Of a stretch of 64,000 nucleotides of DNA, positions 19,052-41,542 are shown one piece after another (within the stretch, counting starts at the first letter, position 1; each line of letters starts with the position of its first letter). Under the pieces are notes generated by a model. That model worked only from the letters and a program-made list of their open reading frames with translations, was not told where the DNA came from and searched no databases. A program made the position numbers and the translations under genes. The DNA comes from Mucilaginibacter sabulilitoris (GTDB taxonomy: Bacteria; Bacteroidota; Bacteroidia; Sphingobacteriales; Sphingobacteriaceae), in assembly GCF_034262375.1 (NCBI RefSeq), contig NZ_CP139558.1, positions 1-64,000 on the forward strand. Reading direction: 5' to 3'.

Positions 19052-21442
19052 TTATTCCGTTTTTAGGCTTTTTACCGGGTTTGTTAGTGCTGCTTTTATA
19101 CTCTGGTAGCTTACCGTAAGTAGCGTAATCATAATAGCGCCAATAGCAGTGAAACCAAATATCCACCAGGAAAGCTCGGCCCGGTATTGGTAACTTTGCA
19201 GCCAGCCGTGCATAAAGTAATAAGCAACGGGTATTGCTATGGCCAATGCTATAACTACCAGGGCTACAAAATCCTTCGACATTAAACGCCACAGACTGAA
19301 TATCGAAGCGCCCAGTACTTTACGCACTCCGATTTCCTTTATACGCTGTTCGGCCATAAACGATGCCATGCCAAACAAGCCCATGCAGCTGATAAAAATA
19401 GCCAATATGGTAAAAAAGCCGGCCAGCTTGCCTATGCGCTCCTCATTTGCAAATTTTTGCGCATAGTCTTCGTTGGTGAATTTATATTCAAACGGACTGC
19501 CGGGATTGTAGCGTTTAAAAATGGGTTCGATTTTGCTTAGGGCTTCTCTCGGGTTCATTTGGGGGTTCAGGCGAATGTCGATCATTTCCATGGCATAATT
19601 GGCAATGATGAATACGCTTGGTTTTACAGGCTCATACGGCGACGACATAACCATATCCTTTATCACACCGATAACCGTAAAATCGCGGTACCACTTTATG
19701 GTTTCGCCCACCGGGCTTTTCAGGTTCATGAATTTTACCGCCGCCTCATTTAGTATAATGCCCGATGTATCGGCCACCGCCCTTGTGAAATCACGCCCAT
19801 CCACCAATTTCCAGCCAGCTGTTTTGCCAAATTCCGGACTCAGCCTTATCGTTCCGAAATCGTCCTGCAGGTTGGGGTCTTTGCCCCGCCAGTTTAACCC
19901 GCTGTTGTTTGACCATACACCCGTTAGCGGACTGCCCGATTCGGCTACTTCTACGATGGCGCCGGTTTGCAACAAGTCATTTCTGAAGGCCATAAAATGT
20001 TTGTGTATATCATCGCCGTGAATGTTCATTTGTACAAGTCCGGTACGTTCATAGCCTACCGGCCGGTTCTTGGTAAACTGTACCTGCCTGAAGACAATTA
20101 TGGTGCCGATGATTAGTGTTACCGAAACTGTAAACTGTAAAACTACCAGTACCTTACGAGGCAGTGCAGCAAAGCGTCCTGCCTTAAATGTTCCTTTTAA
20201 AACTTTTACCGGCTGAAATGATGACAGGTAAAATGCCGGATAGCTGCCGGATATTATACCGGTGAGCAAGCTGAACATTAACCCGCAGAGCCAAAAAACA
20301 GGATTATCCCATAGTACAACTATATCTTTACCGGCTACCTGGTTAAACCATGGTAATATCAGCATCACTATAACTATCGATACCATAAATGCAAAAACGG
20401 CAATCATTAACGACTCCATAAAAAACTGGCCAATAAGCTGCCTCCTCAACGAACCTATGGCCTTACGGATTCCTACCTCCTTAGCCCGTTTCTCAGACCG
20501 GGCGGTGCTCAGGTTCATGAAGTTGATGCAGGCCAGCAGCAATACAAACACGCCTATAATGCCAAACATCCAAACAAATTGTATGGCGCCGCCTGTGATT
20601 ACGCCGTTTTTAAATTCCGAATATAAATGCCACTTATTCATGGGGTGTAAAAACAGGGTCGATTTAAATGCCATGCCAACTAAATCGTTATCAGCTGTAA
20701 GCCCCTTATGTTTCAGATCTTTTATTTTGGTGGCTACCTTATTGATATCGACATTGGGCGCCAGTTGGGAAAATATTTGCCATGAGGTGTTACCCCAGCG
20801 TGTAGCCTGCTTTTTTAATTGGGGATCGGTGGTCATGTACAAATCCCACGGTGCAATAAACTTCATACCACTAAATGAGGTATTCCGGGGCAGATCTTCA
20901 TAAACACCGGTAACCTTAACATTCCATTTATTGTCAATCTTTACAGCTTTGAGCATCGGGTCGGCATTACCGAACAGCGCTTTGGCCACCGATGCCGAAA
21001 GCAGGATAGATGAAGGGTCTTTTAATCCGGCGCGCGTACCCTTGAGCATTTTTAAGGTTAGCATATCCGGCGCTTCAGCCTGCATGTAATTGCCGTCCTG
21101 GGTTATTTTAGTATCGCCATTGGCCAATACGTGCCCGGATGTCCAGGTTGATAATACGGCATATTTGAAATCCTCCTTATAATCCTGACGAAGTTTATAA
21201 CCCAGGGGTATAGGTAACGAATTTTCTGAGGTGATTTCGCCATTGAAGGTTTCATGCTGCATGACCCGCACAATACGGTCGTGGTTTTCAAAATACTTAT
21301 CGTAAGATAGTTCATCCCATATCCACAGACCAATAAGCATGGCCACCGCCATACCCACCGACAAGCCGGCCACATTAATAAATGTGTGAGCCTTGTTTTT
21401 CACAAGGTTTCGCCAGGCTATTTTTAAATAATTCTTGATCAT
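19052..21442 (-). CDS. FtsX/MacB-type ABC permease, array member 9 (last)
   Basis: A 796-residue double permease unit of the MacB type. It has TM1 (about 22-42), a periplasmic core domain, a first FtsX domain with three to four helices (about 280-450), a second periplasmic domain, and a second FtsX domain (about 675-790). Cytoplasmic coupling motifs are present twice: RAKEVGIRKAIGS (about 310-330) and RIKEIGVRKVLGAS (about 695-710). It belongs to subgroup I (GLWIWDELSYDKYF at the TM1 exit; NKWHLYSEFKNG before TM2) and is most like member 8. There is no ATP-binding domain. Such proteins export or mechanically transmit across the envelope using an ATPase in trans; the cargo is unknown. The esterase gene follows 19 bp later. 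Confidence 0.92.
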   Translation of the reverse strand: MIKNYLKIAWRNLVKNKAHTFINVAGLSVGMAVAMLIGLWIWDELSYDKYFENHDRIVRVMQHETFNGEITSENSLPIPLGYKLRQDYKEDFKYAVLSTWTSGHVLANGDTKITQDGNYMQAEAPDMLTLKMLKGTRAGLKDPSSILLSASVAKALFGNADPMLKAVKIDNKWNVKVTGVYEDLPRNTSFSGMKFIAPWDLYMTTDPQLKKQATRWGNTSWQIFSQLAPNVDINKVATKIKDLKHKGLTADNDLVGMAFKSTLFLHPMNKWHLYSEFKNGVITGGAIQFVWMFGIIGVFVLLLACINFMNLSTARSEKRAKEVGIRKAIGSLRRQLIGQFFMESLMIAVFAFMVSIVIVMLILPWFNQVAGKDIVVLWDNPVFWLCGLMFSLLTGIISGSYPAFYLSSFQPVKVLKGTFKAGRFAALPRKVLVVLQFTVSVTLIIGTIIVFRQVQFTKNRPVGYERTGLVQMNIHGDDIHKHFMAFRNDLLQTGAIVEVAESGSPLTGVWSNNSGLNWRGKDPNLQDDFGTIRLSPEFGKTAGWKLVDGRDFTRAVADTSGIILNEAAVKFMNLKSPVGETIKWYRDFTVIGVIKDMVMSSPYEPVKPSVFIIANYAMEMIDIRLNPQMNPREALSKIEPIFKRYNPGSPFEYKFTNEDYAQKFANEERIGKLAGFFTILAIFISCMGLFGMASFMAEQRIKEIGVRKVLGASIFSLWRLMSKDFVALVVIALAIAIPVAYYFMHGWLQSYQYRAELSWWIFGFTAIGAIMITLLTVSYQSIKAALTNPVKSLKTE

Positions 21443-21478
21443 TATAAGTAGTTCAATTGTTCATTAGTTCATTGGAGC

Positions 21479-21501
21479 TTTGACCTTTATCCTTTAACCT
21501 C
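21479..21501. repeat. Permease-array spacer word, copy between members 8 and 9
   Basis: TTTGACCTTTATCC followed by TTTAACCTC, just beyond the stop codon of member 8, preceded (21451 onward) by CAATTGTTCATTAGTTCATT. The same text recurs at 38778-38800 and, in altered form, at 36313-36342, 33825-33847, 28931-28950 and 23976-23996. Confidence 0.75.
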
Positions 21502-21502
21502 A

Positions 21503-23899
21503 CTATTCGCTTCTTAAACTTTTTACGGGATTAGCCAGTGCCGCTTTAATGGCCTGGAAGCTTACGGTAACCAGTGTTATTATAATGGCGCCTACTGCCG
21601 ATACACCAAATATCCACCAGGAAATTTGAGACCGGTAAGTGTAGCCCTGCAGCCAGCCATGCATAAAATAGTAAGATACCGGCGATGCGATAATAAAGGA
21701 GATGATAACCAATACAACGAAGTCTACTGACAGCAGTTGCCACAGGTTAAATACCGATGCACCTAAAACTTTGCGTACACCTATTTCCTTAACCCTCTGC
21801 TCGGCCATAAAGGTTGCCATACCAAATAGGCCCAAACAGCTGATAAATATGGCCAGCATGGCAAAAAAGCTCGCCAGCTTGCCTATACGCGTTTCGCCGT
21901 CAAATTTTTTTGCATATTCTTCGTCGGCGAACTTATAATCAAACGGCGAAGCCGGCGAATATTTCTGATGTATGGCGGCAATTTTTTCGAGCGCATCGCG
22001 GGTGCTCATCTTCGGATTTATCCTGATAGTTACCACTCCCTGCGGGTCTTTATCCAGGAAAAAGAAAGTTTGCTTAACCGGTTCATAAGGCGATGACATG
22101 AGCATATCTTTAATAAGCCCTATTACATGGTACGGCTTGCCGTCGGTTGTTATGATCTCGCCCACAGGGTTTTTAAAATTCATGAACTTTGCCGCGGCCT
22201 CATTAATTACTACACCGGTCGAGTCGGTTAAAAACGCGGTCGAAAAATCACGGCCATCCTTAAACTGCCACCCAACGGTTTTACCAAAGTCAGGTGTTAT
22301 GCCTACCGTCGCAAAATCATCCAGCATGCCGGGCGGCTTCCCTCTCCAGTCAAAACCACTATTGTTGCTCCACACACCGGTAACGGGACTTCCCGATTCG
22401 GCCGTTTCTATAACAGCTCCCGATTTTATCAGCTCATCTTTAAAAGCTACGTAATGATTATGGATATCGCTTGTTTTTTGCACCATGTAAACCAATCCTT
22501 CGCGGCTATAGCCAATAGGCCTGTTCTTGGCAAATTGTATCTGCCTGAAAACAATGATGGTGCCTATAATAAGCGTTACCGAAACGCTGAATTGTAAAAC
22601 TACCAGCACCTTACGGGGTATAGCAGCCAGCCGTCCTACTTTGAATGTTCCCTTTAAAACCTTTATAGGTTTAAATGACGACAGGTAGAGCGCCGGGTAA
22701 CTACCAGCTATTAGTCCGGATATGAGACTAAAAACCAAGCCCAGTATCCAAAACCATGGATTGTTCCATAAAACAACCATCTTTTTATCTGCAACACCGT
22801 TAAACCAGGGCAGCGTAAGCATTACCAGTACTATTGAAAAAACAAAGGCAAAAGCAACTATCAGCAGCGATTCCATAAAAAACTGCCCTATGAGCTGTAT
22901 CCGCTGCGAGCCTATGGCCTTGCGGATGCCTACTTCCTTAGCTCGCTTCTCGGACCGGGCGGTGCTCAGGTTCATGAAATTGATGCAGGCCAGCAATAAT
23001 ACAAACACCCCTATGATGCCAAACATCCATACAAATTGTATGGCGCCACCTGTATTTACACCGTTTTTAAACTCCGAATATAAGTGCCATTTATTCATTG
23101 GGTGTAAAAACACGGCCGGTTTAAAATCGGCCCCTAATTTGTCGCCCTGTGCGGCTATGTTTTTGAGCTTTAAGTCTTTAATTTTGGCTGATACTTTATC
23201 GGCATTAGCATTGGGTGCCAATTGCGCAAATACCTGCCATGAATTGTTGCCCCAGCGGGTAGCGGCTCGTTTAAGCCAGGGCATGGTGCTCATGTACAGG
23301 TCCCAGGGTGCAAAAAAGGTGACCTCTCTAAACTCGGTGTTGTTGGGCATATCCTCATACACACCTGTTACCTTAACCACCCATTGGTTGTCAATTTTAA
23401 GTGTTTTATTAAGAGGGTCGGCACCACCGAAAAGTGTTTTTGCCAGCGATTCAGACAGCATGATAGACGACATATCCTTTAGTCCGGCGCGCGTGCCTTT
23501 AAGCATTTTCAGCGTTAGCAGATCGGGCATTTCGGGCTGCACATAGTTACCCAGCTTGGTGAATTTCTTGTCGCCATTGGTAATAATGTGCTCCATAGTC
23601 CATGTCGAAAGTACCACATATTTAAAATCGCTCATGTACGATTCACGAAGTTTTAAGCCCAGCGGAATAGGCATGGCCGTTTGGCTGCCCACAACTCCGT
23701 TAAATGTTTGGTTCTGCCATACCTGTACAATACGGTCGTAATTTTTAAAATACTTGTTGAACGAGACTTCATCCCAGATCCAGAGCCCAATAAGCATGGC
23801 CACCGCCATACCAACCGAAAGGCCCGCTACGTTAATAAAACTGTGCACCTTATTTTTTACAAGGTTTCGCCACGCAATTTTTAAATAATTCTTTAACAT
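21503..23899 (-). CDS. FtsX/MacB-type ABC permease, array member 8
   Basis: 798 residues, subgroup I (GLWIWDEVSFNKYFKNYDRI; NKWHLYSEFKNGVNTGGAIQ in parts). The same two-half plan is seen: TM1, periplasmic domain, FtsX core, second periplasmic domain, second FtsX core. Coupling motifs are RAKEVGIRKAIGS and RVKEIGVRKVLGAS. It is nearly identical to member 9 around the first FtsX core, which suggests recent duplication or gene conversion. It ends in NPVKSLRSE, a tail shared by the array. The upstream gap to member 7 is 100 bp and the downstream gap to member 9 is 60 bp. No nucleotide-binding domain is present, so it depends on an ATPase encoded elsewhere. Confidence 0.92.
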   Translation of the reverse strand: MLKNYLKIAWRNLVKNKVHSFINVAGLSVGMAVAMLIGLWIWDEVSFNKYFKNYDRIVQVWQNQTFNGVVGSQTAMPIPLGLKLRESYMSDFKYVVLSTWTMEHIITNGDKKFTKLGNYVQPEMPDLLTLKMLKGTRAGLKDMSSIMLSESLAKTLFGGADPLNKTLKIDNQWVVKVTGVYEDMPNNTEFREVTFFAPWDLYMSTMPWLKRAATRWGNNSWQVFAQLAPNANADKVSAKIKDLKLKNIAAQGDKLGADFKPAVFLHPMNKWHLYSEFKNGVNTGGAIQFVWMFGIIGVFVLLLACINFMNLSTARSEKRAKEVGIRKAIGSQRIQLIGQFFMESLLIVAFAFVFSIVLVMLTLPWFNGVADKKMVVLWNNPWFWILGLVFSLISGLIAGSYPALYLSSFKPIKVLKGTFKVGRLAAIPRKVLVVLQFSVSVTLIIGTIIVFRQIQFAKNRPIGYSREGLVYMVQKTSDIHNHYVAFKDELIKSGAVIETAESGSPVTGVWSNNSGFDWRGKPPGMLDDFATVGITPDFGKTVGWQFKDGRDFSTAFLTDSTGVVINEAAAKFMNFKNPVGEIITTDGKPYHVIGLIKDMLMSSPYEPVKQTFFFLDKDPQGVVTIRINPKMSTRDALEKIAAIHQKYSPASPFDYKFADEEYAKKFDGETRIGKLASFFAMLAIFISCLGLFGMATFMAEQRVKEIGVRKVLGASVFNLWQLLSVDFVVLVIISFIIASPVSYYFMHGWLQGYTYRSQISWWIFGVSAVGAIIITLVTVSFQAIKAALANPVKSLRSE

Positions 23900-23999
23900 G
23901 TTGTACGTTTTAGTTTATACGTATTACGTTATACGGCTTTCAGCTTTATGCCTTCGGCCCTTATTATCTTTCGCCTTTGACCTTTACTCTTTCGCCTTA

Positions 24000-26360
24000 C
24001 TATTCGCTCCGCAAGCTTTTTACCGGGTTGGCCATGGCCGCTTTTACCGCCTGGAAACTCACGGTTATTAGTGTAATGGCTATTGCGCCGGCGCCTGCAC
24101 AAACAAATATCCACCCGGAAATTACGGCTTTATACTGGTAGCCCTGCAGCCAATGTTGCATAAAATAGTAAGCCACAGGTACTGCTATAAGCAGCGATAT
24201 AAAAACCAGCACCACAAACTCGGTTGATAACAGACGCCACAGGTTTACCACCGATGCGCCCAGCACCTTGCGCACCCCAATTTCTTTAACCCGCTGCTCG
24301 GCAACGAATGATGCCAGCCCAAAGAGGCCCAGGCATGAAATAAAGATAGCCAGTACCGCGAATATGGAGGCCAGGTTACCTATACGCTCCTCGTCCGAAA
24401 ATTTATGAGCGTATTCATCGTCATTGAATTTAAATTCAAAAGGACTGCCAGGGTTGTATTTTTTAAAAACAGGTTCAATTTTGCTCAGTGCCTCCCGTAT
24501 GGGCATGTTTGGTTTTATGCGTACGGTGATCCAGTTAACCCAGCCGGGGGTCATAAAGAATATGGTGCCTTTGGTTTTTTCATACGGCGATTCCATCACC
24601 ATATCTTTGGCTACGCCCACAATTACATGGTTACCGTCGTGCCAGTGTATGGTTTTACCTATCGGGTTTTTAATACCGCTCATTTTAAGCGCCGATTCGT
24701 TTAGGATAATAGCGCCCGTATCGGTAGGGAAGTTACGTGAAAAATCGCGCCCCTGTGCTATTTTCCACCCTACAGTGTGGCCAAAATCATAAGTTACGCC
24801 TATAGTACCAAATGTAGGGTCATACCCGGGGGTTTTGCCGGCCCAGTCAAAACCGCCATTGTTTGACCATATCTGGGTTGTTGTGCTGTTTGATTCGGCC
24901 ATATTTTCCACCGCACCGGTTTGTATCAGGTCGTTGCGCATTACTTCATAGTGGCCATAAATTTCGGGCGTGTTCATTTCAATAGAAATAAGGCCCGCAC
25001 GCGAGTAGCCAACCGGCCGGTCTTTAGCAAACTGAATTTGCCGTAAAACAATGATGGTGCCTATAATTAAAACGATAGATACCGTAAACTGAACCACGAC
25101 CAGCACCTTGCGTGGGATAGCAGCCAAACGGCCTACCCTAAATGTACCCTTTAACACCTTTACCGGGTTAAAGGCAGATAAATAAAACGCCGGGTAACTA
25201 CCCGATATCAGGCCTGTAAAAATGGTAAAGCTCAACGTAAGCAACCAGAATAGCGGATTGCCCCAGGGTATGGAAACCTCCTTATCTGCAACATGATTAA
25301 AGTAGGGGATAGCCAGCAGTACCATGATAACCGTTAATACCAGCGACAGGAACACCACCAGCAACGATTCACTTAAAAACTGCCCGATAAGCTGGTTGCG
25401 AACAGAACCTATAGCCTTGCGTATGCCTACCTCTTTGGCCCGTTTTTCGCTTTTAGCTGTACTCAGGTTCATGAAATTGATACAGGCCAGCAACAACACA
25501 AACAGGCCAATAATTCCAAACAACCAAACAAATTCTATGCGGCCCCCAACGGCTACTCCGTTCTTAAAATCGCTGTATAAATGCCATTTGCGCATGGGGT
25601 GTACCTGTATTACCTCGTCGTTCATTTTAAAGTGCGGCTTGGTAATGTTCCTGATCCTGGCTGATACTTTATCAAAGTCGGCATGATCATTCATCAGTAC
25701 AAATAAATGGCAGGCGTGATTATCCCAGGCTTGCATTTGGGTGCTCCACCAGTTTGCCGGGTTACTGAATGGGAGCATAAACTTTGTTTCGTAAAATGTG
25801 GTATTGTGCGGCAGGTCCTGATAAACGCCAATTACTTTCATATTGGTTTTATTATCAATCCGCACGGTTTTATTTATGGGGTCGGCATCGCCAAACAAGG
25901 CTTTGGCCATTGATTGTGATATCAGAAATGACGAAGGATCTTTAAAACTGGCATAGCTGCCTTTTACCATGTTCAGTGAAAGAATAGTGGGCATAGCAGG
26001 CTCGGCCCACATCCCGTTTTGCGATATCTTTTTATCGCCTACAGCCAATATGTGGGCGCCTTCCCAGATAAGGGCTGTCAATTTAAAATCGCCCGCATAT
26101 TTGGTACGAAGTTCGTTACTCAGCGGCACAACAGTCGCCCCAAAAGTGGGGGTTTCGCCATTGGCCGTTTGGGTGACCATTACCTGGCCTACACGGTCAT
26201 AGTTTTTATGATACTTATCAAATGACAGTTCATCCCAGATCCAAAGGCCAATAAGCATGGCTATAGCCATACCAACCGACAGGCCAACAATATTTATGGC
26301 CGAATGCACCTTGTTCTTAACGAGGTTCCGCCATGCGATTTTTAAATAGTTCTTTAACAT
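24000..26360 (-). CDS. FtsX/MacB-type ABC permease, array member 7
   Basis: 786 residues, the shortest full member of the array, in subgroup I (GLWIWDELSFDKYHKNYDRV; RKWHLYSDFKNGVAVGG). Coupling motifs are RAKEVGIRKAIGS in the first and RVKEIGVRKVLGAS in the second FtsX core. The first periplasmic domain is shorter than in members 8 and 9, and its HPMRKWHLY segment follows closely after KMNDEVIQ. The 155-bp gap upstream to member 6 is the longest in the array and holds a REP-like element, so this is a likely seam where two blocks of permeases were joined. Function is as for the family; the cargo is unknown. Confidence 0.92.
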   Translation of the reverse strand: MLKNYLKIAWRNLVKNKVHSAINIVGLSVGMAIAMLIGLWIWDELSFDKYHKNYDRVGQVMVTQTANGETPTFGATVVPLSNELRTKYAGDFKLTALIWEGAHILAVGDKKISQNGMWAEPAMPTILSLNMVKGSYASFKDPSSFLISQSMAKALFGDADPINKTVRIDNKTNMKVIGVYQDLPHNTTFYETKFMLPFSNPANWWSTQMQAWDNHACHLFVLMNDHADFDKVSARIRNITKPHFKMNDEVIQVHPMRKWHLYSDFKNGVAVGGRIEFVWLFGIIGLFVLLLACINFMNLSTAKSEKRAKEVGIRKAIGSVRNQLIGQFLSESLLVVFLSLVLTVIMVLLAIPYFNHVADKEVSIPWGNPLFWLLTLSFTIFTGLISGSYPAFYLSAFNPVKVLKGTFRVGRLAAIPRKVLVVVQFTVSIVLIIGTIIVLRQIQFAKDRPVGYSRAGLISIEMNTPEIYGHYEVMRNDLIQTGAVENMAESNSTTTQIWSNNGGFDWAGKTPGYDPTFGTIGVTYDFGHTVGWKIAQGRDFSRNFPTDTGAIILNESALKMSGIKNPIGKTIHWHDGNHVIVGVAKDMVMESPYEKTKGTIFFMTPGWVNWITVRIKPNMPIREALSKIEPVFKKYNPGSPFEFKFNDDEYAHKFSDEERIGNLASIFAVLAIFISCLGLFGLASFVAEQRVKEIGVRKVLGASVVNLWRLLSTEFVVLVFISLLIAVPVAYYFMQHWLQGYQYKAVISGWIFVCAGAGAIAITLITVSFQAVKAAMANPVKSLRSE

Positions 26361-26397
26361 GATCTCTTAAATTCTAAACGCTAATCTCTAAAATGGA

Positions 26398-26470
26398 CTG
26401 CCATCCATCCTGTCGAAGAATCGTGCGGAGAGGCACCGCCCACCATGCTTCGACAGGCTTCAACATGAAC
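26398..26470. repeat. REP-like palindromic element, copy C
   Basis: CTGCCATCC...CCTGTCGAAG...TCGTGCGGAGAGGC...CCACCATGCTTCGACAGGC...CATGAACC: a more decayed copy of the 13874-13949 element, sitting in the longest spacer of the permease array, between members 6 and 7. Confidence 0.7.
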
Positions 26471-26515
26471 CCTTTTATTTTACTCACTACTCAAAACTCA
26501 TAACCCGCAACTCCT

Positions 26516-28891: not shown

Positions 28892-28930
28892 AACAATCAG
28901 TTTATTGGTTCAATTGTTCATTAGTTCATT

Positions 28931-28950
28931 GACCTTTGCCTTTTAACCTC
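28931..28950. repeat. Permease-array spacer word, copy between members 5 and 6
   Basis: GACCTTTGCCTTTTAACCTC immediately beyond the stop of member 5, preceded by TTCAATTGTTCATTAGTTCA (from 28909). A variant of the spacer text found at other junctions. Confidence 0.65.
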
Positions 28951-28951
28951 A

Positions 28952-31318: not shown

Positions 31319-31409
31319 TGTCATATTTTTTAGCTTATAGCACAAGCCTAAAGCCTTTATATAATCTTATTTATTCCTTTTTAACTTAAGCCATGTGCTT
31401 TCGGCTTAT

Positions 31410-33782
31410 CTATTCGCTTCTCAAACTTTTAATGGGGTTTATGAGTGCCGCCTTTATTGCCTGGAAGCTTACCGTTAGTATAGCTATCAGTATAATAGTA
31501 GCTCCCGACAAAGCGAACATCCACCACTGTATAGGGGTACGGTAAGCAAACCGCTGCAGCCAATGGTTCATGGCATACCAGGATACGGGCAACGCGATAA
31601 ACAGGGCAATAATTACCAGTAATAAAAACTCCGACGACAGCAGCGCGAACAGTGAACTCACACTCGCGCCTAACACCTTGCGGATGCCTATTTCCTTGAT
31701 GCGCTGCTCGGCGGTGAACATGGCCAGCCCCAATAATCCCAGGCATGAAATAAATATGGCCAGGAAAGCAAACGCATCCGAAAGCTTGGTTACCACCTGT
31801 TCGTTTTGATATAGCTTCTGGTATTCCTGATCTGAAAAATTATAAGTAAACGGGAAAGATGGGTTAATTTGTTTACACAATGTTTCGAGGCTGGCCAGCG
31901 CCTGTTTGGTTTTACCCGGCTGGGTTTTTACCATTACAGTACCATAATCTTCCCCTTCTCTTGACCTTATCACCAGCGGTTGCACCTGCTCATGCAGGGA
32001 GTTAAAATGAAAATCTTGAACCAGCCCTACAATTGTGCCTTTTTTACCCCAAAATGTTAGGGGCTTGCCAATAGGATTTGCATATTTGATCCTTTTCAGG
32101 GCCGCCTCATTAATAATATAACCTACAGAATCTGTGGGGTAGTCCTTTGAAAAATCTCGCCCGGCCAGCATTTTCAGCCTGAGTGTTTTTACAAAATCAT
32201 ACCCTACCGATGTTTGGGTAAACTCAATGTTTACATTAGGATCCTTACCTTCCCAGTTTACATTGCCTGTGGTGTTTGACATATTGGTTGGTACGCTGCT
32301 CATACGGCTTACCAGTTGTATACCCGGCATACGCAATGCCTCTTGTTTAAAAGTGCTGTATTTAGGTATCAGTTCGCCGTTCATGGGTACATATATCAGG
32401 TTTTCACGGTCGTACCCCAGGTTTTTTGATTGTACATAAGCCATTTGCCGCGATACAACTATGGTGGCGGTTATCAGTATAACCGATAAAGCAAACTGAA
32501 ATATAACGAGCCCCTTGCGGAACATAGTGGTTCCTGAATCTAACTTGATGGCACCCTTTAATACCTTAACCGGGTTAAAGGACGATAAAAACAAAGCCGG
32601 GTAGCTGCCCGAAATTAAACCGGTTATGATAGTTAAAGCTGCCAGTTTTATCCAGAATAAAGGCTGATTAAATGGCAGATCAATCTCTTTTTGGGTGATA
32701 TGGTTAAACACCGGCAACAACAGCACCAGTAAAACCAGTGAAACTACTACCGCCAGCGTGGTGATGAGTAATGATTCGCCGATAAACTGTTTGATCAAAA
32801 CCGACCGTACTGCGCCTACTACCTTGCGAACCCCTATCTCGCGGGCACGTTTAACTGAACGTGCGGTGGTAAGGTTCATAAAGTTAATGCAGGCTATCAG
32901 TAAAATAAAAATGGCTACAATGGTAAACAGATGTACATACTCAATACGACCGCCTTCTATTTTACCATTATCAAAATTGCCATGCAGGTAACCTTCGTCT
33001 AAACGCTGCATACCCAGTTCTTCTGTAAATGTGCCCTTCTTTTGATCTTTATTTAAATTATCTAAAAAGTGGGTGATCTTTTTTTCAACCAATGCTGGAT
33101 TGGCATCGGCCCGTAACATGATCATCGTAGCCGGTCCGTTATTGCCCCAGTCTTTCGCCCATCCATTCTCTTCCAGGAAACTATACCAGTTCCTTACGAA
33201 GTCGTACTTTTGTGATGAGGCTTTTGGTACATCTTCAAATACCCCGGTTACTTTAAAATCCTTTTTGTTTTCGTAACGTATGGTTTTGCCAATAGCCGCC
33301 TCGGGGCTGCCAAAAAAAGCCACCGCCATTTTGCGCGAGATAGCCAGGCTCACAGGCGAGTTTAACGCGGTTTGCGCGTTACCTTGTAATAGCGGCACGC
33401 TCACCATTTTAAAATAATCGGCGCCGGCATCGGCGCCTGTCATTTTCAATATTTTATCGCCAACCTGAAAAGTGTACTCATCTCCGTATATTAAATTGGT
33501 AGCCGCTTCAACTTCCGGGATCTGCTTTTTTAATTCATCAGCAAGTACTCCCGGGGTAGCATATTGCCCCTGAATTTTATTATCATAATACTGCCGTTCA
33601 TAAACCGTATAAAGGCGATCTGCGTTTTTATGATAAGCATCTATACTCAACTCATTTTGTACCCATAACAAAATAAGCAGGCTGCAGGCCAGCCCAACCG
33701 AAAGGCCCGCGATGTTAATAAAGGTGTGTGCCTTGTTCTTAACTAAATTACGCCAGGCTATTTTTAAATAATTTTTTAACAT
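31410..33782 (-). CDS. FtsX/MacB-type ABC permease, array member 4
   Basis: 790 residues, subgroup II (CSLLILLWVQNELSIDAYH; DNGKIEGGRIEYV). Coupling motifs are RAREIGVRKVVGA in FtsX core 1 and RIKEIGIRKVLGAS in core 2. It has a TM5 segment FRKGLVIFQFALSVILI and a QKEIDLPFNQ loop. Very similar to member 6, while the intervening member 5 is more distant, so the three did not arise by simple stepwise tandem duplication. The gap to member 3 is 66 bp and contains spacer text. Envelope-spanning export or signalling role by family; specific cargo unknown. Confidence 0.92.
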   Translation of the reverse strand: MLKNYLKIAWRNLVKNKAHTFINIAGLSVGLACSLLILLWVQNELSIDAYHKNADRLYTVYERQYYDNKIQGQYATPGVLADELKKQIPEVEAATNLIYGDEYTFQVGDKILKMTGADAGADYFKMVSVPLLQGNAQTALNSPVSLAISRKMAVAFFGSPEAAIGKTIRYENKKDFKVTGVFEDVPKASSQKYDFVRNWYSFLEENGWAKDWGNNGPATMIMLRADANPALVEKKITHFLDNLNKDQKKGTFTEELGMQRLDEGYLHGNFDNGKIEGGRIEYVHLFTIVAIFILLIACINFMNLTTARSVKRAREIGVRKVVGAVRSVLIKQFIGESLLITTLAVVVSLVLLVLLLPVFNHITQKEIDLPFNQPLFWIKLAALTIITGLISGSYPALFLSSFNPVKVLKGAIKLDSGTTMFRKGLVIFQFALSVILITATIVVSRQMAYVQSKNLGYDRENLIYVPMNGELIPKYSTFKQEALRMPGIQLVSRMSSVPTNMSNTTGNVNWEGKDPNVNIEFTQTSVGYDFVKTLRLKMLAGRDFSKDYPTDSVGYIINEAALKRIKYANPIGKPLTFWGKKGTIVGLVQDFHFNSLHEQVQPLVIRSREGEDYGTVMVKTQPGKTKQALASLETLCKQINPSFPFTYNFSDQEYQKLYQNEQVVTKLSDAFAFLAIFISCLGLLGLAMFTAEQRIKEIGIRKVLGASVSSLFALLSSEFLLLVIIALFIALPVSWYAMNHWLQRFAYRTPIQWWMFALSGATIILIAILTVSFQAIKAALINPIKSLRSE

Positions 33783-33824
33783 AATAATTCAGTTTATTAG
33801 CTCATTGGTATAATACCTTTTGCC

Positions 33825-33847
33825 TTTGACCTTTATCCATTCACCTC
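33825..33847. repeat. Permease-array spacer word, copy between members 3 and 4
   Basis: TTTGACCTTTATCC followed by ATTCACCTC, ending one base before the stop codon region of member 3. Preceded by TTTATTAGCTCATTGG (33793 onward). Confidence 0.7.
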
Positions 33848-33848
33848 T

Positions 33849-36278
33849 TTACTCCGTTTTCAAGCTTTTCACAGGGTTCATCAACGCTGCTTTAATGGCC
33901 TGGAAACTTACGGTTACCAGGGCAATAACAATGGCCAGTACACCCGCCAGGGCAAACATCCACCAGCTTATATTTATACGGTAAACAAATGCCTGCAGCC
34001 ATTTACTTGCGGCCCACCAGGCAAATGGAGTTGCAATTACTATGGATACCATAACCAGCTTTAAAAAATCTTTTGATAAAAGTGCTACTATACCCGATAC
34101 ACTTGCACCAAGCACTTTGCGGATACCTATTTCTTTACTCCGCTGTTCGGCGCTAAACGCTGCCAAACCAAACAAGCCAAGGCATGAGATTAGGATAGCG
34201 ATCAGCGTAAATGAATTAATGATCTGCGATAAAGTGATTTCCGATTCATATTGTTTTTGCACCTCGCTATCCAGAAACGAATATTCAAAAGGTGCGTCTG
34301 GGATATCTTTGTGCCATACGGCTTCCATTTTTGACAGCAGGCCCTTATAGTTTTTACTATCGGTAGATACAATAATGGTGTTCAATTCATCTTGTTGACC
34401 GTCATAAACCAGCATAAAGGGGTTTACTTCACTATGCAAGGAGTTGTAGTTAAAATCTTTCATCACACCTGCTACCTCAACAAAGGTGACCGGATTTGGC
34501 TCGTATTTGGTGTACAGCCTTGTCCCCGGGGCGGTTTGCGGGTTTAAACCCAAACGTTTGGCAAGAGTTTCATTGATAAGTACCCGTGTTGAGTCGTGTT
34601 GCCTGAGATCGCGGCCGCTGATCACTTTTATACCATTGGCTTTTACAAAGTTTTCATCAACGTTTATATTTTGCGCGTCGATAGCCGTGGCCATATTACC
34701 GCCGGCCAGGTAAACCCCATGATCATGCGGCACAAACTGGCCCAAATAATTATCGGCGTTACTAACCGCTTTTACCCCAGCCAGTTGTTTCAGGTCGTTG
34801 GTAAATGCGGGCATTTGCCGCTGGGTAGTACTGGTATAAAAATTAAATATCAGTTTTTGGCTCTGGTCAAACCCGAGGTCTTTATTTTTAATATAATTAA
34901 GCTGACTGTAAATTACAATAATGCCGGTTACCAGCACAATTGATAATACAAACTGAACCACTACTAATGATTTACGGATGCCACCTGCCGAAATATGATT
35001 GTTAAAATTACCTTTCATCACTTTTACCGCTTTAAAAGCCGAAAGGTAAAATGCCGGATAGCTACCAGCAACCAAGCCGGTAACAACAACCAGGCTCAGC
35101 AACATTATCCATAAGCGATAGTTTGTAAAAAAGGATAGTTGTATATCTGAATGGGTTATCTGGTTTAGGTATGGCATTAATAAGATCAATAACGGCAGCG
35201 CTATAGCCACCCCAATAAGGGCAAGTAAAAACGATTCGCCCAGAAATTGTCTTATCAAATCGCTCTGGCCTGCGCCTATCACTTTTCGTACGCCCACTTC
35301 CTTGGCGCGTTTGGATGCGCGCGCGGTTGATAGGTTCATGAAATTGATGCAGGCTATAACTTGTATCATTACCGCGATGAGTATTAGTATGTACAGGAAC
35401 GACGGATCAAGTGTTTTGGTAAATTCATGTTCAAAGCCCGGCGTTGTATGTATGGTTGTAACCGGCTGCAGGTGCAGTACTTTTTTCATGCCTATCTCCT
35501 TTAGTTGCTGTGCGCCATACTTGTTTAAAAGGTCGGGCAGTTTTTTTTCAAGCGCGGCTGCACTGGCACCCGGCTTCAGTTTGATATATGCAAACAGAAA
35601 ATTATTACCCGCCCAGGTGGTGTTCTGGCGAACGAATCCGCCCAATCCCCCGCTATTCATGGCCATAAACATATTGGCGTGGATATGTGTTTTACCTAGG
35701 CTTTCATCAATTACCCCGGTCACTTTAAAATCATGCTTGCCAAATGAGTTGTCGATAGATATCATTTTACCTATCGGGTCTTCAGTACCAAAAAGCTTGT
35801 CAGCAACGGGTTTAAAAAGTACAAGTGAATATGGTTCGGTTAATACTTTTGACGCATTCCCTCCAACAAAATGATAGTTGAACATATCAAAAAAGGTAGA
35901 GTCGACATAAGCAGCATCGTGCTCATAAAATGATTTCTCCTTATAGCGCAGCAAATGCTGTTTAGCGCCAAAGCCATCTGTCGGCACTACCCGCGTAAAT
36001 TGCTGCACCTCTGCAAAATCATTTTTCATGGCCGGTGTAATGGGCGGCGAGCTTGTACTGCTATGGTGCTTATCGCCCGTTAATTCCAGGTCTGTTGTAA
36101 TGCGATAAATGTTGTCAACCTGTTTATGATGCTTGTCATAATTGTACTGTTCCTGCACATATAACAAAATATACAGGCAGCACAACGTACCCATTGCCAG
36201 GCCAAATATGTTTATAAAACTAAAGGTTTTGTTCTTTAACAAAAATCTCCAGGCGGTTTTTAAATAACTTTTAATCAT
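33849..36278 (-). CDS. FtsX/MacB-type ABC permease, array member 3
   Basis: 809 residues, the only subgroup III member here. The TM1 region is CCLYILLYVQEQYNYDKHH, and the first periplasmic domain is longer than in subgroups I and II, with HIHANMFMAMNSGGLGG. Coupling motifs are RAKEVGVRKVIGA and RSKEIGIRKVLGAS. Ends NPVKSLKTE like the others. This type of sequence is a common stand-alone FtsX permease in Bacteroidota, so it may represent a separate functional line inserted between subgroup I and II members. Gaps are 64 bp upstream and 66 bp downstream. No nucleotide-binding domain. Confidence 0.92.
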   Translation of the reverse strand: MIKSYLKTAWRFLLKNKTFSFINIFGLAMGTLCCLYILLYVQEQYNYDKHHKQVDNIYRITTDLELTGDKHHSSTSSPPITPAMKNDFAEVQQFTRVVPTDGFGAKQHLLRYKEKSFYEHDAAYVDSTFFDMFNYHFVGGNASKVLTEPYSLVLFKPVADKLFGTEDPIGKMISIDNSFGKHDFKVTGVIDESLGKTHIHANMFMAMNSGGLGGFVRQNTTWAGNNFLFAYIKLKPGASAAALEKKLPDLLNKYGAQQLKEIGMKKVLHLQPVTTIHTTPGFEHEFTKTLDPSFLYILILIAVMIQVIACINFMNLSTARASKRAKEVGVRKVIGAGQSDLIRQFLGESFLLALIGVAIALPLLILLMPYLNQITHSDIQLSFFTNYRLWIMLLSLVVVTGLVAGSYPAFYLSAFKAVKVMKGNFNNHISAGGIRKSLVVVQFVLSIVLVTGIIVIYSQLNYIKNKDLGFDQSQKLIFNFYTSTTQRQMPAFTNDLKQLAGVKAVSNADNYLGQFVPHDHGVYLAGGNMATAIDAQNINVDENFVKANGIKVISGRDLRQHDSTRVLINETLAKRLGLNPQTAPGTRLYTKYEPNPVTFVEVAGVMKDFNYNSLHSEVNPFMLVYDGQQDELNTIIVSTDSKNYKGLLSKMEAVWHKDIPDAPFEYSFLDSEVQKQYESEITLSQIINSFTLIAILISCLGLFGLAAFSAEQRSKEIGIRKVLGASVSGIVALLSKDFLKLVMVSIVIATPFAWWAASKWLQAFVYRINISWWMFALAGVLAIVIALVTVSFQAIKAALMNPVKSLKTE

Positions 36279-36312
36279 ACAATTAGTTCATTGGTTCCAT
36301 TGTTCATTGGTC

Positions 36313-36342
36313 TTTGGCTTTTCATCTTTATCCTTTCACCTC
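36313..36342. repeat. Permease-array spacer word, copy between members 2 and 3
   Basis: TTTGGCTTTTCATC followed by TTTATCCTTTCACCTC: the spacer word with a small internal extension. Preceded by CAATTAGTTCATTGG (36280 onward) and TTCATTGG. Confidence 0.65.
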
Positions 36343-38742
36343 TCACTCCATTTTTAAGCTTTTTACCGGGTTCATTAGGGCGGCTTTTATACTTTGATAG
36401 CTAACCGTAAGCAGGGTAATTAAAATAGCACCGAAGCCGGTTAATACAAATATCCACCAGGTTATGCCTGCATGGTACGCGTACCCTTGCAGCCACTGGT
36501 GCATGATGTAATAAGCAACTGGTGTTGCTATTAACAGTGAAATGATAACCAGCCCAACAAAATCTTTTGAAAGTAAACGCCACAGGTTAAATATCGATGC
36601 GCCTAATACTTTGCGTATGCCAATTTCTTTGATGCGCTGTTCGGCCATGAAGGTAGCCATCCCAAATAAACCTAAACAACTGATAAATATGGCGAGGCCC
36701 GAAAAACAGCTGGCCAGTTTTCCAATACGCTCTTCGTTATCAAATTTTTTGGCATAGTCATCGTCAACAAATTGATAGCTAAATGGGGTTGCGGGGTCGT
36801 ACTTTTTAAATATTGTGCTGATCTTGCTTATGGCATCATGAGTGCTTACCAGCGGGTTTATTTTTATGTTGATATTACTCAAATTTGTCCAGAAGCGCGG
36901 CAAAAAGAAAATAGTTGGCTGAGGGGCAGCATATACCGACTGATTGACCATATCTTTTACTACACCAATAATTTTAAACTTATTGTCGTTCCATACCATA
37001 GTTTCACCAACCGGGTGTTTCAGCCCCATAAATTTGGCCGCGGTTTCGTTGATAATAAATGTTAAAGAATCTGATAAGAAAGCAGGGTTAAAATCCCGTC
37101 CCGCGGTAATTTTCCAGTCGAAGGTTTTCCCAAAGTCAGACGTTACGGCCATGGTAGTAAATTGTTCCTGTACGCCAGGGTCTTTACCCGGCCAGGTAAG
37201 GCCGCCATTAGATATATATATTTGAGTGATCCGGCTTTCAGATTCGGATACATTTTTTACAACTCCGCTGGCAAGTAAATCATTTTTAAGGGCCTGGTAT
37301 TGTTTATTAATATCATCGGTTTGCAGATTCACATTTAACATGTTATCGCGGCTGAAGCCTGCCGGGCGGTTTTTTGCAAACTGGATTTGCTGGAAAACCA
37401 CGACCGTGCCGATTATCAGTATTACTGATACGGTAAACTGAACTACCACCAATACCTTACGTGGGATGGCTGCCAAATGGCCAACCTTGAATGTCCCTTT
37501 TAATACTTTTACGGGGCGAAATGATGATAAGTACAATGCCGGATAGCTGCCTGCAATGAGCCCGGTAAATAAACTAAAGATGATACCCAGTGCCCAGAAT
37601 ACAGGGTTACCCCATAAAATAACTATTTTTTTACCCGCAAGCTCGTTAAACGCAGGCAGGCATAACAAAACCAGCAACAATGATAAAACTAAAGCAGCAA
37701 CAGCTATTAAAAGAGATTCAGTGTAAAACTGAGCGATCAGCTGGCTGCGAACGGAACCGATAGCTTTGCGAATGCCCACTTCCCGGGCCCGTTTTTCGGA
37801 CCGGGCTGTGCTCAGGTTCATGAAATTGATGCAGGCCAACAGCAACACAAAAACGCCGATTATGCCAAACATCCATACGTACTGGATATGGCCTCCGGTA
37901 TTTACGCCATTTTTAAACTCGCCGTACAGGTACCAGCGGTTCATGGGGTGCAAAAAAAGCGCCGACCGGTAGCGTGCATCGCTATTGTGCAGGCTTACGA
38001 GCGCGTTCAGTTTCAGGTTTTTGATTTTAGCCGAAACCTGGTTCATGTCGGCATTATCAGCAATTTGTACAAATGTCTGGAACCAGCTGGCTCCCCAGGG
38101 ATTATTGAACCTGGTGGCGTAATGTTCGCTTGTTGCCAGCATTTGAAATGGGGCGATGAAAGCAAGATCGCCAAAAGATGAATTTTGCGGCAGGTCCTGG
38201 TAAATGCCGGTTACCTTGGCTTCAAGCTTCTTATCAATCCTTATAACATTGTTTATCGGGTCGGCATTACCAAAAACCGCCTTAGCGGCCGACTGAGAAA
38301 GTAGTATAGATGTAGGGTCATTTAAACTACCGGCATTGCCCTTTAGTATTTTTAAAGAAAGCATGTCGGTTACCGCAGGCTCCATATAGTTGCCTTTTTG
38401 GGTTACTGTTTTATTGTTATAGGTTAAAAGATGGTCGTTTGTCCACGATGTTATAATAACATGTTTAAAAAGGTTTCCGTAGCTATTTCTAAGGGCAGGT
38501 GCCAGTGGCAAAGCTGATCCGCCAGATGTTTCCACTTCATTATTCACCCATCCGTTATCCATTACTTTAGCGATGCGATCTTTATTTTTGAAGCCTGAAT
38601 CATAGGATACCTCATCCCAAATCCATAAACCAATAAACATGGCCACTGCCATACCAACAGCCAGGCCGCCGATATTAATTAAAGAAGAAGCCTTATTTTT
38701 TATAAGGTTTCTCCACCCGATTTTCAGATAGTTTTTGATCAT
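36343..38742 (-). CDS. FtsX/MacB-type ABC permease, array member 2
   Basis: 799 residues, subgroup I (MFIGLWIWDEVSYDSGFKN; NRWYLYGEFKNGVNTGG). Coupling motifs are RAREVGIRKAIGS and RIKEIGIRKVLGAS. It is separated from the other subgroup I members (7, 8, 9) by four genes of other subgroups, which points to rearrangement or interleaved acquisition. The second periplasmic domain differs most from its subgroup. The gap to member 1 upstream is 59 bp with an almost word-perfect copy of the spacer text. As for the others, there is no ATPase domain, and ATP hydrolysis must come from a partner in trans. Confidence 0.92.
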   Translation of the reverse strand: MIKNYLKIGWRNLIKNKASSLINIGGLAVGMAVAMFIGLWIWDEVSYDSGFKNKDRIAKVMDNGWVNNEVETSGGSALPLAPALRNSYGNLFKHVIITSWTNDHLLTYNNKTVTQKGNYMEPAVTDMLSLKILKGNAGSLNDPTSILLSQSAAKAVFGNADPINNVIRIDKKLEAKVTGIYQDLPQNSSFGDLAFIAPFQMLATSEHYATRFNNPWGASWFQTFVQIADNADMNQVSAKIKNLKLNALVSLHNSDARYRSALFLHPMNRWYLYGEFKNGVNTGGHIQYVWMFGIIGVFVLLLACINFMNLSTARSEKRAREVGIRKAIGSVRSQLIAQFYTESLLIAVAALVLSLLLVLLCLPAFNELAGKKIVILWGNPVFWALGIIFSLFTGLIAGSYPALYLSSFRPVKVLKGTFKVGHLAAIPRKVLVVVQFTVSVILIIGTVVVFQQIQFAKNRPAGFSRDNMLNVNLQTDDINKQYQALKNDLLASGVVKNVSESESRITQIYISNGGLTWPGKDPGVQEQFTTMAVTSDFGKTFDWKITAGRDFNPAFLSDSLTFIINETAAKFMGLKHPVGETMVWNDNKFKIIGVVKDMVNQSVYAAPQPTIFFLPRFWTNLSNINIKINPLVSTHDAISKISTIFKKYDPATPFSYQFVDDDYAKKFDNEERIGKLASCFSGLAIFISCLGLFGMATFMAEQRIKEIGIRKVLGASIFNLWRLLSKDFVGLVIISLLIATPVAYYIMHQWLQGYAYHAGITWWIFVLTGFGAILITLLTVSYQSIKAALMNPVKSLKME

Positions 38743-38777
38743 GACAATTAGTTCATTAGTTCAATTGTTCATTGGTC

Positions 38778-38800
38778 TTTGACCTTTATCCTTTCACCTC
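38778..38800. repeat. Permease-array spacer word, copy between members 1 and 2
   Basis: TTTGACCTTTATCC followed by TTTCACCTC, one base before the stop codon of member 1, preceded by TTAGTTCATTAGTTCAATTG (38748 onward). Differs from the 21479-21501 copy at one position in 23. Confidence 0.75.
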
Positions 38801-38801
38801 A

Positions 38802-41234
38802 TTACTCCGACTTTAAACTCGTTACCGGGTTTGTTAACGCGGCTTTTATACTTTGGTAACTAACCGTTACAAGGGCTATTAATATGGCAACTATCCCGGC
38901 AAGGGCAAACATCCACCAGCTAATGGGCGTGCGGTATGTAAAATCCTGCAGCCACTTGGTCATGGCCCACCATGCAATTGGCGATGCTATGATAATAGCC
39001 AGGAAAACCAGCTTTAAAAAATTCATAGACAACAGCGTGGTTATATTACTAACAGTTGCTCCCAGCACCTTACGGATGCCTATTTCCTTGCGCCTTTGCT
39101 CGGCCATGAAAGCAGCCAAGGCGAACAGGCCCAAACAGGCAATAACAATGGCCAGTATGGCAAATGTGGTAAATATGCGCCCCATGCGCTGTACATCGGC
39201 ATACATGCTGGCAAAGCGCTCATCCATAAAGGTATAGCGAATGGGTTGGTTGGGCGCAAAGTTTTTCCACGTTGAGCTGATCTGAGCCATCGTATTTTTC
39301 ACATCACCGGCCTTTATTTTTACCGACACGATAGAATTGTTGTTAGCCAAATGCATTACCAGGGGATCTATCCCATCTCTGAGCGACTCGAAATTAAAAT
39401 CCTGCACTACACCTATTATTAACCTTGTAGTACCGTAATGACTAATACGTTTACCTACCGGGTTTTTGAGATTAAGCTTTTTAGCTAAAGTTTGATTGAT
39501 AATAACCGCCTGTGAATCGGTTTTAAGCGCAGGATTGAAATTGCGGCCCGCCACTATTTTCATCCCGAAAGTTTTGATATAATCTTCATCTACATCCCAA
39601 AACTGGCTACCGGTACCGGCCTCAGTTTTTTCCTTACCTTCGTTATGAAATTCGTTACCGTTTCGCTTGGTACCCGATACCGGCAGAAAATCGCTGATGG
39701 ATACACTTTGTACCGACGATAATTTTAGCAGTTCATTTTTAAAGCTTTTTACCTCATTATCTAAAGTACTGGTGCCCTGTATCATTACCACCTGATCTTT
39801 TTCAAATCCTACTTTTTTATTGAGGATAAATTGCATCTGGTTATAAATAACAACCGTGCTGATGATCAGGATAATAGATGTAGTGAACTGGAAAACAACT
39901 AATCCGTTGCGCAATACTGAGCTCTTACTGCCTATGCTTAGTTTGCCTTTTAATACTTCGGCAGGTTTAAAACCTGAAAGATAAAATGCGGGATAGATGC
40001 CAGCAACCACCCCAATTAAGACTGCCGATATGAGTACAGCTGGTATAAACCACCACTGTAACCATGGCATGGTAAGCGTTTTTGATGCCAAAACATTGAA
40101 ATAAGGGAGCAATACAGTAGCCAATATTAACCCCAATACAAAGGAGAAAAAACTATAAATTAATGATTCGGTCAGGAACTGGCTGATCAGCCCGCTGCGC
40201 TGTGAACCCACCACCTTGCGCAAACCAACTTCTTTTGCCCGATTGGCAGATTTTGCTGTTGACAGGTTAATGAAATTGATACAGGCTATAAGTAAAATAA
40301 AGCAAGCTACCGCGCCAAATAACCATATAAACCGGATATCGCCATGCTGCATGCCGTCATGTATATCATACGAATGCAGGTTGATATCCTTAACATTCTG
40401 CAAGTACATTTTTAGCGCATCTGCAATTCTTGCCGCGTTTTTATCCCCGTTCTTTTGCATACTCGGGATAAAATAATTGTTGATTATATCATCATTTATC
40501 TTTTTCCCGAGTGCAGCAACATTAACTCCCGGCTTCAACAACAAATAAACACTATAGTTGGCTGCCCCCCAGGTTGTTTGTTCGTCATCCCAAAATTTAA
40601 CCCCTGTAAGCGTTAATAAAAAATCATAATTAAGGTGCGTGGTTTTTGATAAATCCTGCATTACGCCGCCAATTTTATATGGCTTGGTTTTATCGTTATT
40701 AAGGTACATTACTTTGCCAACAGGATTTTGTCCGGGGAAATATTTATCGGCCTTACTTTTTGATATCACCATGGTAAGGGGCTCAGCAAGTGCATGTGCC
40801 CTGTCGCCATACACCATGCGTAGCTTCAATATGTCAAGCAACGATTGATCGGCGTAAGCGAAGCCCTCTTCATGTGTATTTTCCACGTTTTCGGCACGCC
40901 TTAACTCGTTGCTGCCGGCCCCCCAAAACAGCGAGTTAGGCATCAGTCTGCCAAACTTCTCAACTTCAGGAAAATCAGCTTTAACAGTGCGGCCCATTAC
41001 AGCTGGCCAATCAACCCCCTTTCCGTCAAATCCATCAACATGATATGCACCAACAACCCTATATATGCGATTGCCATCCGGATAACTCTTATCAAAGCTC
41101 AGTTCATTTCGAATGTAGAGCGCAATAAGTAAACAGGCCGCTATACTAAACGCAAAACCACCAATTTTAATAGCAGCGTACATTTTTTGTTTGCGCAGTT
41201 GCCTAAGGGCTATTTTTAAATAATTTTTGATCAT
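38802..41234 (-). CDS. FtsX/MacB-type ABC permease, array member 1 (promoter-proximal)
   Basis: 810 residues, the first gene of the array and the sole subgroup IV member (TM1 SIAACLLIALYIRNELSFDKSY; HDGMQHGDIRFIWLFG before TM2). Coupling motifs are RAKEVGLRKVVGS and RRKEIGIRKVLGATVSN. It has the usual plan of two periplasmic domains alternating with two FtsX cores, and about eight transmembrane helices in total. It is divergent from the M1 aminopeptidase gene. A Bacteroidota-type promoter (41322-41351) and a CGAACA-N5-TGTTCG palindrome (41405-41421) lie upstream, making this the likely start of a transcript covering all nine permeases and the esterase. Confidence 0.92.
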   Translation of the reverse strand: MIKNYLKIALRQLRKQKMYAAIKIGGFAFSIAACLLIALYIRNELSFDKSYPDGNRIYRVVGAYHVDGFDGKGVDWPAVMGRTVKADFPEVEKFGRLMPNSLFWGAGSNELRRAENVENTHEEGFAYADQSLLDILKLRMVYGDRAHALAEPLTMVISKSKADKYFPGQNPVGKVMYLNNDKTKPYKIGGVMQDLSKTTHLNYDFLLTLTGVKFWDDEQTTWGAANYSVYLLLKPGVNVAALGKKINDDIINNYFIPSMQKNGDKNAARIADALKMYLQNVKDINLHSYDIHDGMQHGDIRFIWLFGAVACFILLIACINFINLSTAKSANRAKEVGLRKVVGSQRSGLISQFLTESLIYSFFSFVLGLILATVLLPYFNVLASKTLTMPWLQWWFIPAVLISAVLIGVVAGIYPAFYLSGFKPAEVLKGKLSIGSKSSVLRNGLVVFQFTTSIILIISTVVIYNQMQFILNKKVGFEKDQVVMIQGTSTLDNEVKSFKNELLKLSSVQSVSISDFLPVSGTKRNGNEFHNEGKEKTEAGTGSQFWDVDEDYIKTFGMKIVAGRNFNPALKTDSQAVIINQTLAKKLNLKNPVGKRISHYGTTRLIIGVVQDFNFESLRDGIDPLVMHLANNNSIVSVKIKAGDVKNTMAQISSTWKNFAPNQPIRYTFMDERFASMYADVQRMGRIFTTFAILAIVIACLGLFALAAFMAEQRRKEIGIRKVLGATVSNITTLLSMNFLKLVFLAIIIASPIAWWAMTKWLQDFTYRTPISWWMFALAGIVAILIALVTVSYQSIKAALTNPVTSLKSE

Positions 41235-41321
41235 GCTGATATAATTTAAGGACCGGACGCCTGATTTTATTTTTAATTGTTGATTTATATCCTATGGTTA
41301 CTGAGAACATGCCACAGCACA

Positions 41322-41351
41322 CAAAGAATAAAATATGTGCCACTCATTCAA
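41322..41351 (-). promoter_or_regulatory. Predicted promoter of the permease array
   Basis: Minus strand: TTG (41349-41351), 18 bp, then TATTCTTTG (41322-41330), close to the Bacteroidota consensus but with one extra base in the -7 box. It gives a leader of about 80 nt. The 41235-41542 gap holds no convincing gene. Confidence 0.4.
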
Positions 41352-41404
41352 TTAACTAATTATCAACAAGTTAAATATTTAATTTTACCACTACTGTACG
41401 AAAC

Positions 41405-41421: not shown

Positions 41422-41542
41422 CTTTTACGCTGTTTCATAGCTCAATAAATCGCGCATGCAGTAACATACAGCGTTGTTAAACGTCATAGGAAGATTAAGG
41501 GGCATACTTTTTTAGTTTGCCCTCAAAGTATTAATATTGTAT

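Follow-up and report, generated by a model that had tools for sequence, protein, structure and literature searches.

Several described ABC systems bear on the proteins considered here. In MacB, the coupling helix sits between transmembrane helices TM2 and TM3 (PMC5985334), and in E. coli YbbAP, composed of one fused permease with two coupling helices and two ATPase subunits, both coupling helices of YbbP touch the YbbA monomers (PMC12646458). A further type, the acidobacterial duplicated orphan permease (ADOP, TIGR03434), is described and functionally unassigned. For years, annotation of orphan double permeases has given them no function, and the puzzle that defines them is the missing ATPase; our literature search found no partner ATPase named for the family, and a search for a shared ATPase or for expansion of the family in Bacteroidetes returned only Dyadobacter copy counts. 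Group II ECF transporters use one ATPase to serve several permeases encoded elsewhere. The ATPase MsmK does likewise for streptococcal sugar importers (PMC4519317).

The locus described here lies in the genome of a soil bacterium, a Mucilaginibacter (Bacteroidota; G000 below), where a window of 64,000 nucleotides, meaning the whole stretch of DNA analysed, opens a single contig of 7.55 Mb (99.99% complete). The ORF list of the window contains nine consecutive intact ORFs of 786-810 aa on the minus strand at 19052-41234, as a sequence-only reading of the same DNA had claimed, with spacers of 60, 100, 155, 60, 64, 66, 64 and 59 bp from the lowest coordinate upward (a range of 59-155 bp). In the direction of reading, the nine genes are as follows.

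38802..41234, minus strand: double FtsX/MacB permease 1, 810 aa, first gene in the reading direction (orthologues: M. aquaedulcis 80%, G010 77%)
36343..38742, minus strand: double permease 2, 799 aa, group A
33849..36278, minus strand: double permease 3, 809 aa (orthologues 81-87% in relatives)
31410..33782, minus strand: double permease 4, 790 aa, group B, structure predicted
28952..31345, minus strand: double permease 5, group B, listed start TTG
26516..28891, minus strand: double permease 6, 791 aa, group B
24000..26360, minus strand: double permease 7, 786 aa, group A (M. aquaedulcis orthologue 88%, dN/dS 0.06)
21503..23899, minus strand: double permease 8, 798 aa, group A (dN/dS 0.05 against M. 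aquaedulcis)
19052..21442, minus strand: double permease 9, 796 aa, group A

The true start of permease 5 (28952-31345) is probably an internal ATG, the M of MIKSYLK, nine codons past the TTG, giving a protein of about 788 aa. Pairwise identity within the array is 33-73%, with a group A (19052, 21503, 24000 and 36343), a group B (26516, 28952 and 31410) and two single members. Each of the nine proteins contains two MacB_PCD and two FtsX domains, with whole-protein scores above the Pfam gathering score, and both coupling motifs are invariant throughout: E315/G317/R319/K320/G323 in the first and K696-E697-I698-G699-x-R701-K702/G705 in the second (numbering of the 31410-33782 protein). The Pfam matches and the motif check thereby agree with the earlier description of two FtsX cores, two periplasmic domains and two intact coupling motifs per gene. 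The 31410 protein, modelled with AlphaFold (pLDDT 88, pTM 0.82), is predicted to have eight TM helices, two periplasmic domains and two coupling segments. When the model is compared with the PDB, the best match is E. coli YbbP, aligned end to end (9ge6, Z 24.1, rmsd 9.3, 675 residues aligned), followed by BceB (Z 20), MacB and LolE. The conserved motif of each 4-TM unit comes after its second helix, as it does in MacB (PMC5985334), and the proteins combine the features of a type VII ABC permease, namely FtsX with MacB_PCD and 4-TM units whose first and second helices are separated by a large periplasmic domain.

No ATP-binding gene is found inside or beside the run, again in agreement with the sequence-only reading. 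The sole nucleotide-binding-domain gene of the window, at 3476-4216 on the minus strand and 15 kb from the array, encodes LptB (TIGR04406, 371 bits against a cut-off of 240), and this unrelated ATPase was ruled out as the array partner. Two further features flank the nine genes.

41235..41536, minus strand: divergent intergenic region of 302 bp, from which the M1 aminopeptidase gene departs on the plus strand
17497..19032, minus strand: esterase containing domains of the PA14 and chitobiase C-terminal-like types, downstream of permease 9 after a gap of 19 bp

The 302-bp region is the most plausible site of the array promoter. A search for a Bacteroidetes-type promoter (TTTG-N18-22-TANNTTTG, a crude consensus) gave no match in the eight spacers or in this upstream region, and with no consensus promoter in any spacer, separate promoters for each gene are not supported. 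The esterase gene is possibly cotranscribed with the array. It was ruled out as an obligate partner, being missing at the site in two relatives, G010 and X4EP1.

The array is one part of a much larger family, as G000 encodes 53 double permeases, with about 40 sister genes located outside the nine-gene array. Twenty of these form a run at 3,998,897-4,052,439 within a 54-kb locus at ~4.0 Mb, which we term the hub. Here, the gene order is an HlyD-type adaptor (418 aa), ATPase N (233 aa), the 20 permeases, ATPase C (225 aa), and a TolC-like outer-membrane efflux protein (484 aa), an order kept in G031 (one permease), G029 (two) and G142 of another family (two). Both hub ATPases retain the Walker A and signature motifs, and by eye a Walker B/D-loop segment, ADEPTGNL, and a switch histidine, THSE, can also be recognized. 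The best models are DarD for the ATPases (300 and 252 bits against a cut-off of 375), DarC for the adaptor (143 bits against 450), and TolC, below the model cut-off, for the outer-membrane protein. An insertion element with an rve integrase sits between two hub permeases (L150:3849-5317; genome 4013849-4015317).

Some dispersed permeases of G000 are longer, at 1127-1235 aa, and join an N-terminal hydrophobic domain, an AraC-type HTH_18 domain and the permease in one frame, amounting to a transporter with a built-in DNA-binding domain. Pfam identifies HTH_18 in six of them (L169:2475-5981, L172:1756-5139, L163:1238-4639, L166:1972-5652, L162:2211-5918 and L161:847-4533), two more were recognized by sequence in long frames of L158 and L164, and frames of similar length are present in relatives. 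Another permease (L168:2641-5517; genome 3801140-3804016) carries an N-terminal extension of ~145 aa that by eye resembles the cytoplasmic N-terminus of a FecR anti-sigma factor, with no match to the extension in a Pfam and NCBIfam search.

BceB forms a signalling unit in complex with the kinase BceS. It is conceivable, if rather improbable, that the permeases are mainly BceB-like sensors or regulators rather than exporters, relaying envelope stress or the presence of peptides to regulators, a role compatible with the hub ATPase. The match of the predicted fold to BceB and the roughly eight AraC-type fusions among dispersed paralogues point this way, whereas such fusions are absent from all nine window proteins, and the periplasmic adaptor and TolC-like channel of the hub fit export.

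Which ATPase could power permeases that have none beside them was addressed by listing the ATPases of G000 by family search, taking the sequences as genome stretches, and comparing its ABC ATPases with E. coli LolD, MacB, FtsE and YbbA. About eight belong to the superfamily formed by these proteins. With so few in the genome, no set of distant ATPases dedicated to individual array members exists, the finding that would have counted against the sequence-only reading. The ATPase at 5502268 adjoins half-size permeases, that at 3368664 adjoins a YbbP-like protein (a separate YbbAP-like pair at 3365919-3369173), and that at 7465358 adjoins a single permease, while the MacB-like (3279234), LolD-like (2731466) and FtsE-like (5314433) ATPases have no adjoining permease gene. 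With the others otherwise placed, ATPases N and C are, by elimination, the candidates for the permeases that lack an adjoining ATPase. That the orphan permeases instead use one of the three general ATPases, which are of the same superfamily and have no permease gene next to them, is quite unlikely. The MacB-like one also occurs in four Mucilaginibacter genomes devoid of any double permease, and those of LolD and FtsE type probably serve single LolC/E-like and FtsX-like permeases (763840, 6537228 and 7370838), judging by size and known biology. The neighborhood of the ATPase that adjoins half-size permeases (L156; genome 5498246-5505443) holds a DarD-like ATPase and two half-size FtsX permeases by a response-regulator-type protein, along with further secreted or adaptor-like proteins, and represents a relative of the hub system that is unfused and has an ATPase of its own.

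The distribution of permease and ATPase across genomes links the two. Within Mucilaginibacter, ATPase N is present in 37 of 41 genomes (89-100% identity) and ATPase C in the same 37; G006, G019, G025 and G032 have neither ATPase and no double permease, and all 11 ATPase-bearing genomes scanned hold 2-46 double permeases each. Across a first sample of 158 Bacteroidia genomes from 108 genera, 25 encode a double permease, and the same 25, with no others, have an ATPase-N homologue of at least 293 bits (60-100% identity), a line between ATPase-N homologues and half-permease ATPases that was set after the scores were inspected. The other 133 have neither, four of them showing only matches of 246-253 bits, the level of the half-permease ATPase. 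A second sample comprised 98 genomes from the order of G054, a few of them common to both samples. Permeases occur in 53 of these genomes and the ATPase in 52 of the 53 (E 1e-72 or better), while 4 of 45 permease-free genomes give a weak ATPase match of 250-262 bits; the 293-bit line blurs here, as permease-bearing genomes have best ATPase matches down to 250 bits. In G262, a fragmented draft genome, permeases are present with no ATPase match. Fisher's test, uncorrected for phylogeny, gives p = 1e-29 for the Bacteroidia and 8e-22 for the 98-genome order, from scans in which the number of candidates scored per genome was limited. Part of the co-occurrence reflects a single operon, as the ATPase and permease genes of some pairs adjoin each other. 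Permeases number 1-78 per genome against few ATPases of the DarD-like kind: G000, with 53 permeases, G201, with 78, and G283, with 54, have two or three such ATPases each, made up in both G201 and G283 of one strong ATPase-N homologue and one weaker DarD-like match.

Conservation within the family can be read against this distribution. Over 49 paralogues of G000, the two coupling motifs reach 3.4 and 3.8 bits per position, the TM and cytoplasmic parts 2.6-3.0, and both periplasmic domains 1.8, placing the coupling motifs among the best-conserved segments of the family in both halves, with the periplasmic domains varying most. Conserved coupling motifs with variable periplasmic domains are the pattern predicted by a common motor with varied heads, and the hub ATPases would bind at these motifs. 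The absence of an ATPase gene in or beside the array, and beside most dispersed copies, could also mean that the permeases are ATP-independent, acting as passive membrane or periplasmic scaffolds or as sensors. We regard this as very unlikely, as the segments that contact the ATPase in MacB and YbbP are those so well conserved in both halves, and only one fragmented draft among the samples has the family without a DarD-like ATPase.

The array site itself, from the M1 aminopeptidase gene to the Disulph_isomer, M23 and AdoHcyase genes, is conserved in relatives, with the M1 side differing in G010. Array size at this site, whose comparison among related genomes had been suggested, is one permease in X4EP1, four in G010, at least six in M. 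aquaedulcis (where the locus is cut) and nine in G000. The orthologue dN/dS is ~0.05, an approximate value given the high dS, and the array orthologues are under purifying selection, which speaks against the pseudogenes in relatives that would have refuted the sequence-only reading. The variable copy number, with an in-frame stop breaking one hub permease, could be taken for a decaying or neutral amplification without function, a disfavoured and extremely improbable reading given nine intact window genes, the low dN/dS, and an intact single copy in X4EP1.

In the family tree, permeases from the window, from the hub and from dispersed loci are mixed, and well-supported pairs join members of different classes, as expected if permeases change site yet keep the same partner. 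An origin of the array as one clade was ruled out, as the nine genes fall in at least four lineages. The idea that so many such genes in one operon is unusual does not hold for this family, as G000 itself has the run of 20, and tandem runs of the family are common in Bacteroidota, with up to nine in 22 kb. Degenerate 7-bp direct repeats occupy the following spacers of the array.

38743..38801, minus strand: spacer with degenerate 7-bp direct repeats
36279..36342, minus strand: spacer with degenerate 7-bp direct repeats
33783..33848, minus strand: spacer with degenerate 7-bp direct repeats
28892..28951, minus strand: spacer with degenerate 7-bp direct repeats
23900..23999, minus strand: spacer with degenerate 7-bp direct repeats
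21443..21502, minus strand: spacer with degenerate 7-bp direct repeats

Such repeats are also found in the hub array and in loci L073, L089, L102, L118, L131 and L134, and the heptamers differ from spacer to spacer and genome to genome. At lag 7, the match is 0.45 for window permease spacers and 0.51 for those of the hub, compared with 0.30 for the remaining spacers. In genomes other than G000, z exceeds 3 at this lag in 38% of the spacers between two permeases and in 4-7% of the rest, and the other lags show little enrichment. For Beggiatoaceae and some Bacteroidetes, repeats of the heptamer TAACTGA lying upstream of starts have been described (PMC4679880), and a link between repeats of this type and these permeases was not found in the literature.

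Taken together, the array quite probably consists of type VII ABC permeases that have expanded in number, are exchangeable, and draw their power in trans from a hub ATPase, a reading drawn from sequence comparison. The proposal that several permeases share a distant ATPase is well supported by co-occurrence, hub anatomy, motif conservation and elimination, while the ATP-independent mode offered alongside it is not. The direct basis consists of domain make-up, predicted fold, motif conservation, hub anatomy, genome-wide counts and co-occurrence; physical assembly with the hub ATPase, mechanotransmission, and export as the task are what we infer from it. In the proposed mechanism, the permease subunit of a type VII ABC system of Bacteroidota (MacB/LolCE/YbbP-like) would have multiplied in tandem to give the nine genes. 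In the predicted fold, each protein fuses two 4-TM half-permeases into a pseudo-dimer that bears two coupling segments and two periplasmic heads. ATPase N, ATPase C, or both would power the array in trans from the hub. ATP binding and hydrolysis in the common ATPases would be transmitted through the conserved coupling segments to the variable periplasmic heads, which would set specificity, and some or all of the permeases may assemble with the DarC-like adaptor and TolC-like channel of the hub into tripartite exporters. We lean somewhat towards a broader hub-and-spoke arrangement, where one conserved ATPase pair, with an adaptor and a TolC-like channel, drives dozens of interchangeable double permeases from unlinked arrays (53 here, 78 elsewhere), some of them joined to an AraC-type regulator tethered to the membrane, allowing a genome to sample many envelope machines with one motor.

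A named candidate ATPase that nearly all permease-bearing genomes have, and that nearly all other genomes lack, renders the puzzle of the missing ATPase directly testable. If the reading is true, loss of two ATPase genes should silence some 50 permeases together. One ABC motor would then be shared on an unusually large scale, a low-cost route to many envelope functions, and the reading would also explain how arrays without an ATPase grow and shrink so freely.

Among described systems, the array genes resemble the ADOP type while scoring below its model cut-off. Practically the whole 803-position model is matched, with positions 5-803 covered in one stretch by eight of the nine proteins and in two stretches by the 38802 protein; scores of 261-332 bits for the nine (G000 maximum 358) do not reach the cut-off of 622.3. 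The two FtsX and two MacB_PCD domains, the lack of an adjoining ATPase, and the large paralogous families are shared with ADOP, and its definition of no fused or adjacent ATP-binding protein describes the window array but not the hub array. What differs is the phylum, Bacteroidota, and a likely partner ATPase that can be named. The hub parts are most like the darobactin exporter DarBCD (NF038008, NF038010, NF038007), and DarB is the second-best model of the array permeases after ADOP (98-163 bits against a cut-off of 700), while no hub or array part reaches the DarBCD cut-offs (700, 450 and 375 for DarB, DarC and DarD). In contrast to DarBCD, one ATPase pair would here serve dozens of permeases. 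The best full-length structural match of the 31410 model belongs to the E. coli type VII system YbbAP (-TesA), where YbbP has two extra linking TM helices compared with the eight of the model, and where the ATPase is encoded alongside a single permease, unlike the array permeases; the YbbAP model NF041854 scores at most 34 bits in the array against a cut-off of 999. MacAB-TolC and LolCDE share the MacB_PCD/FtsX fold, the coupling helix between TM2 and TM3, and, in the hub, the adaptor and TolC-like channel. However, MacB carries its ATPase in the same chain, an arrangement that separate genes here and scores of 29-68 bits against 966 (PRK10535) do not match, and LolC and LolE are separate chains. 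MsmK and the ECF transporters provide a precedent for how such a shared ATPase works, although these systems belong to other ABC types, act in import, and serve a few clients rather than dozens.
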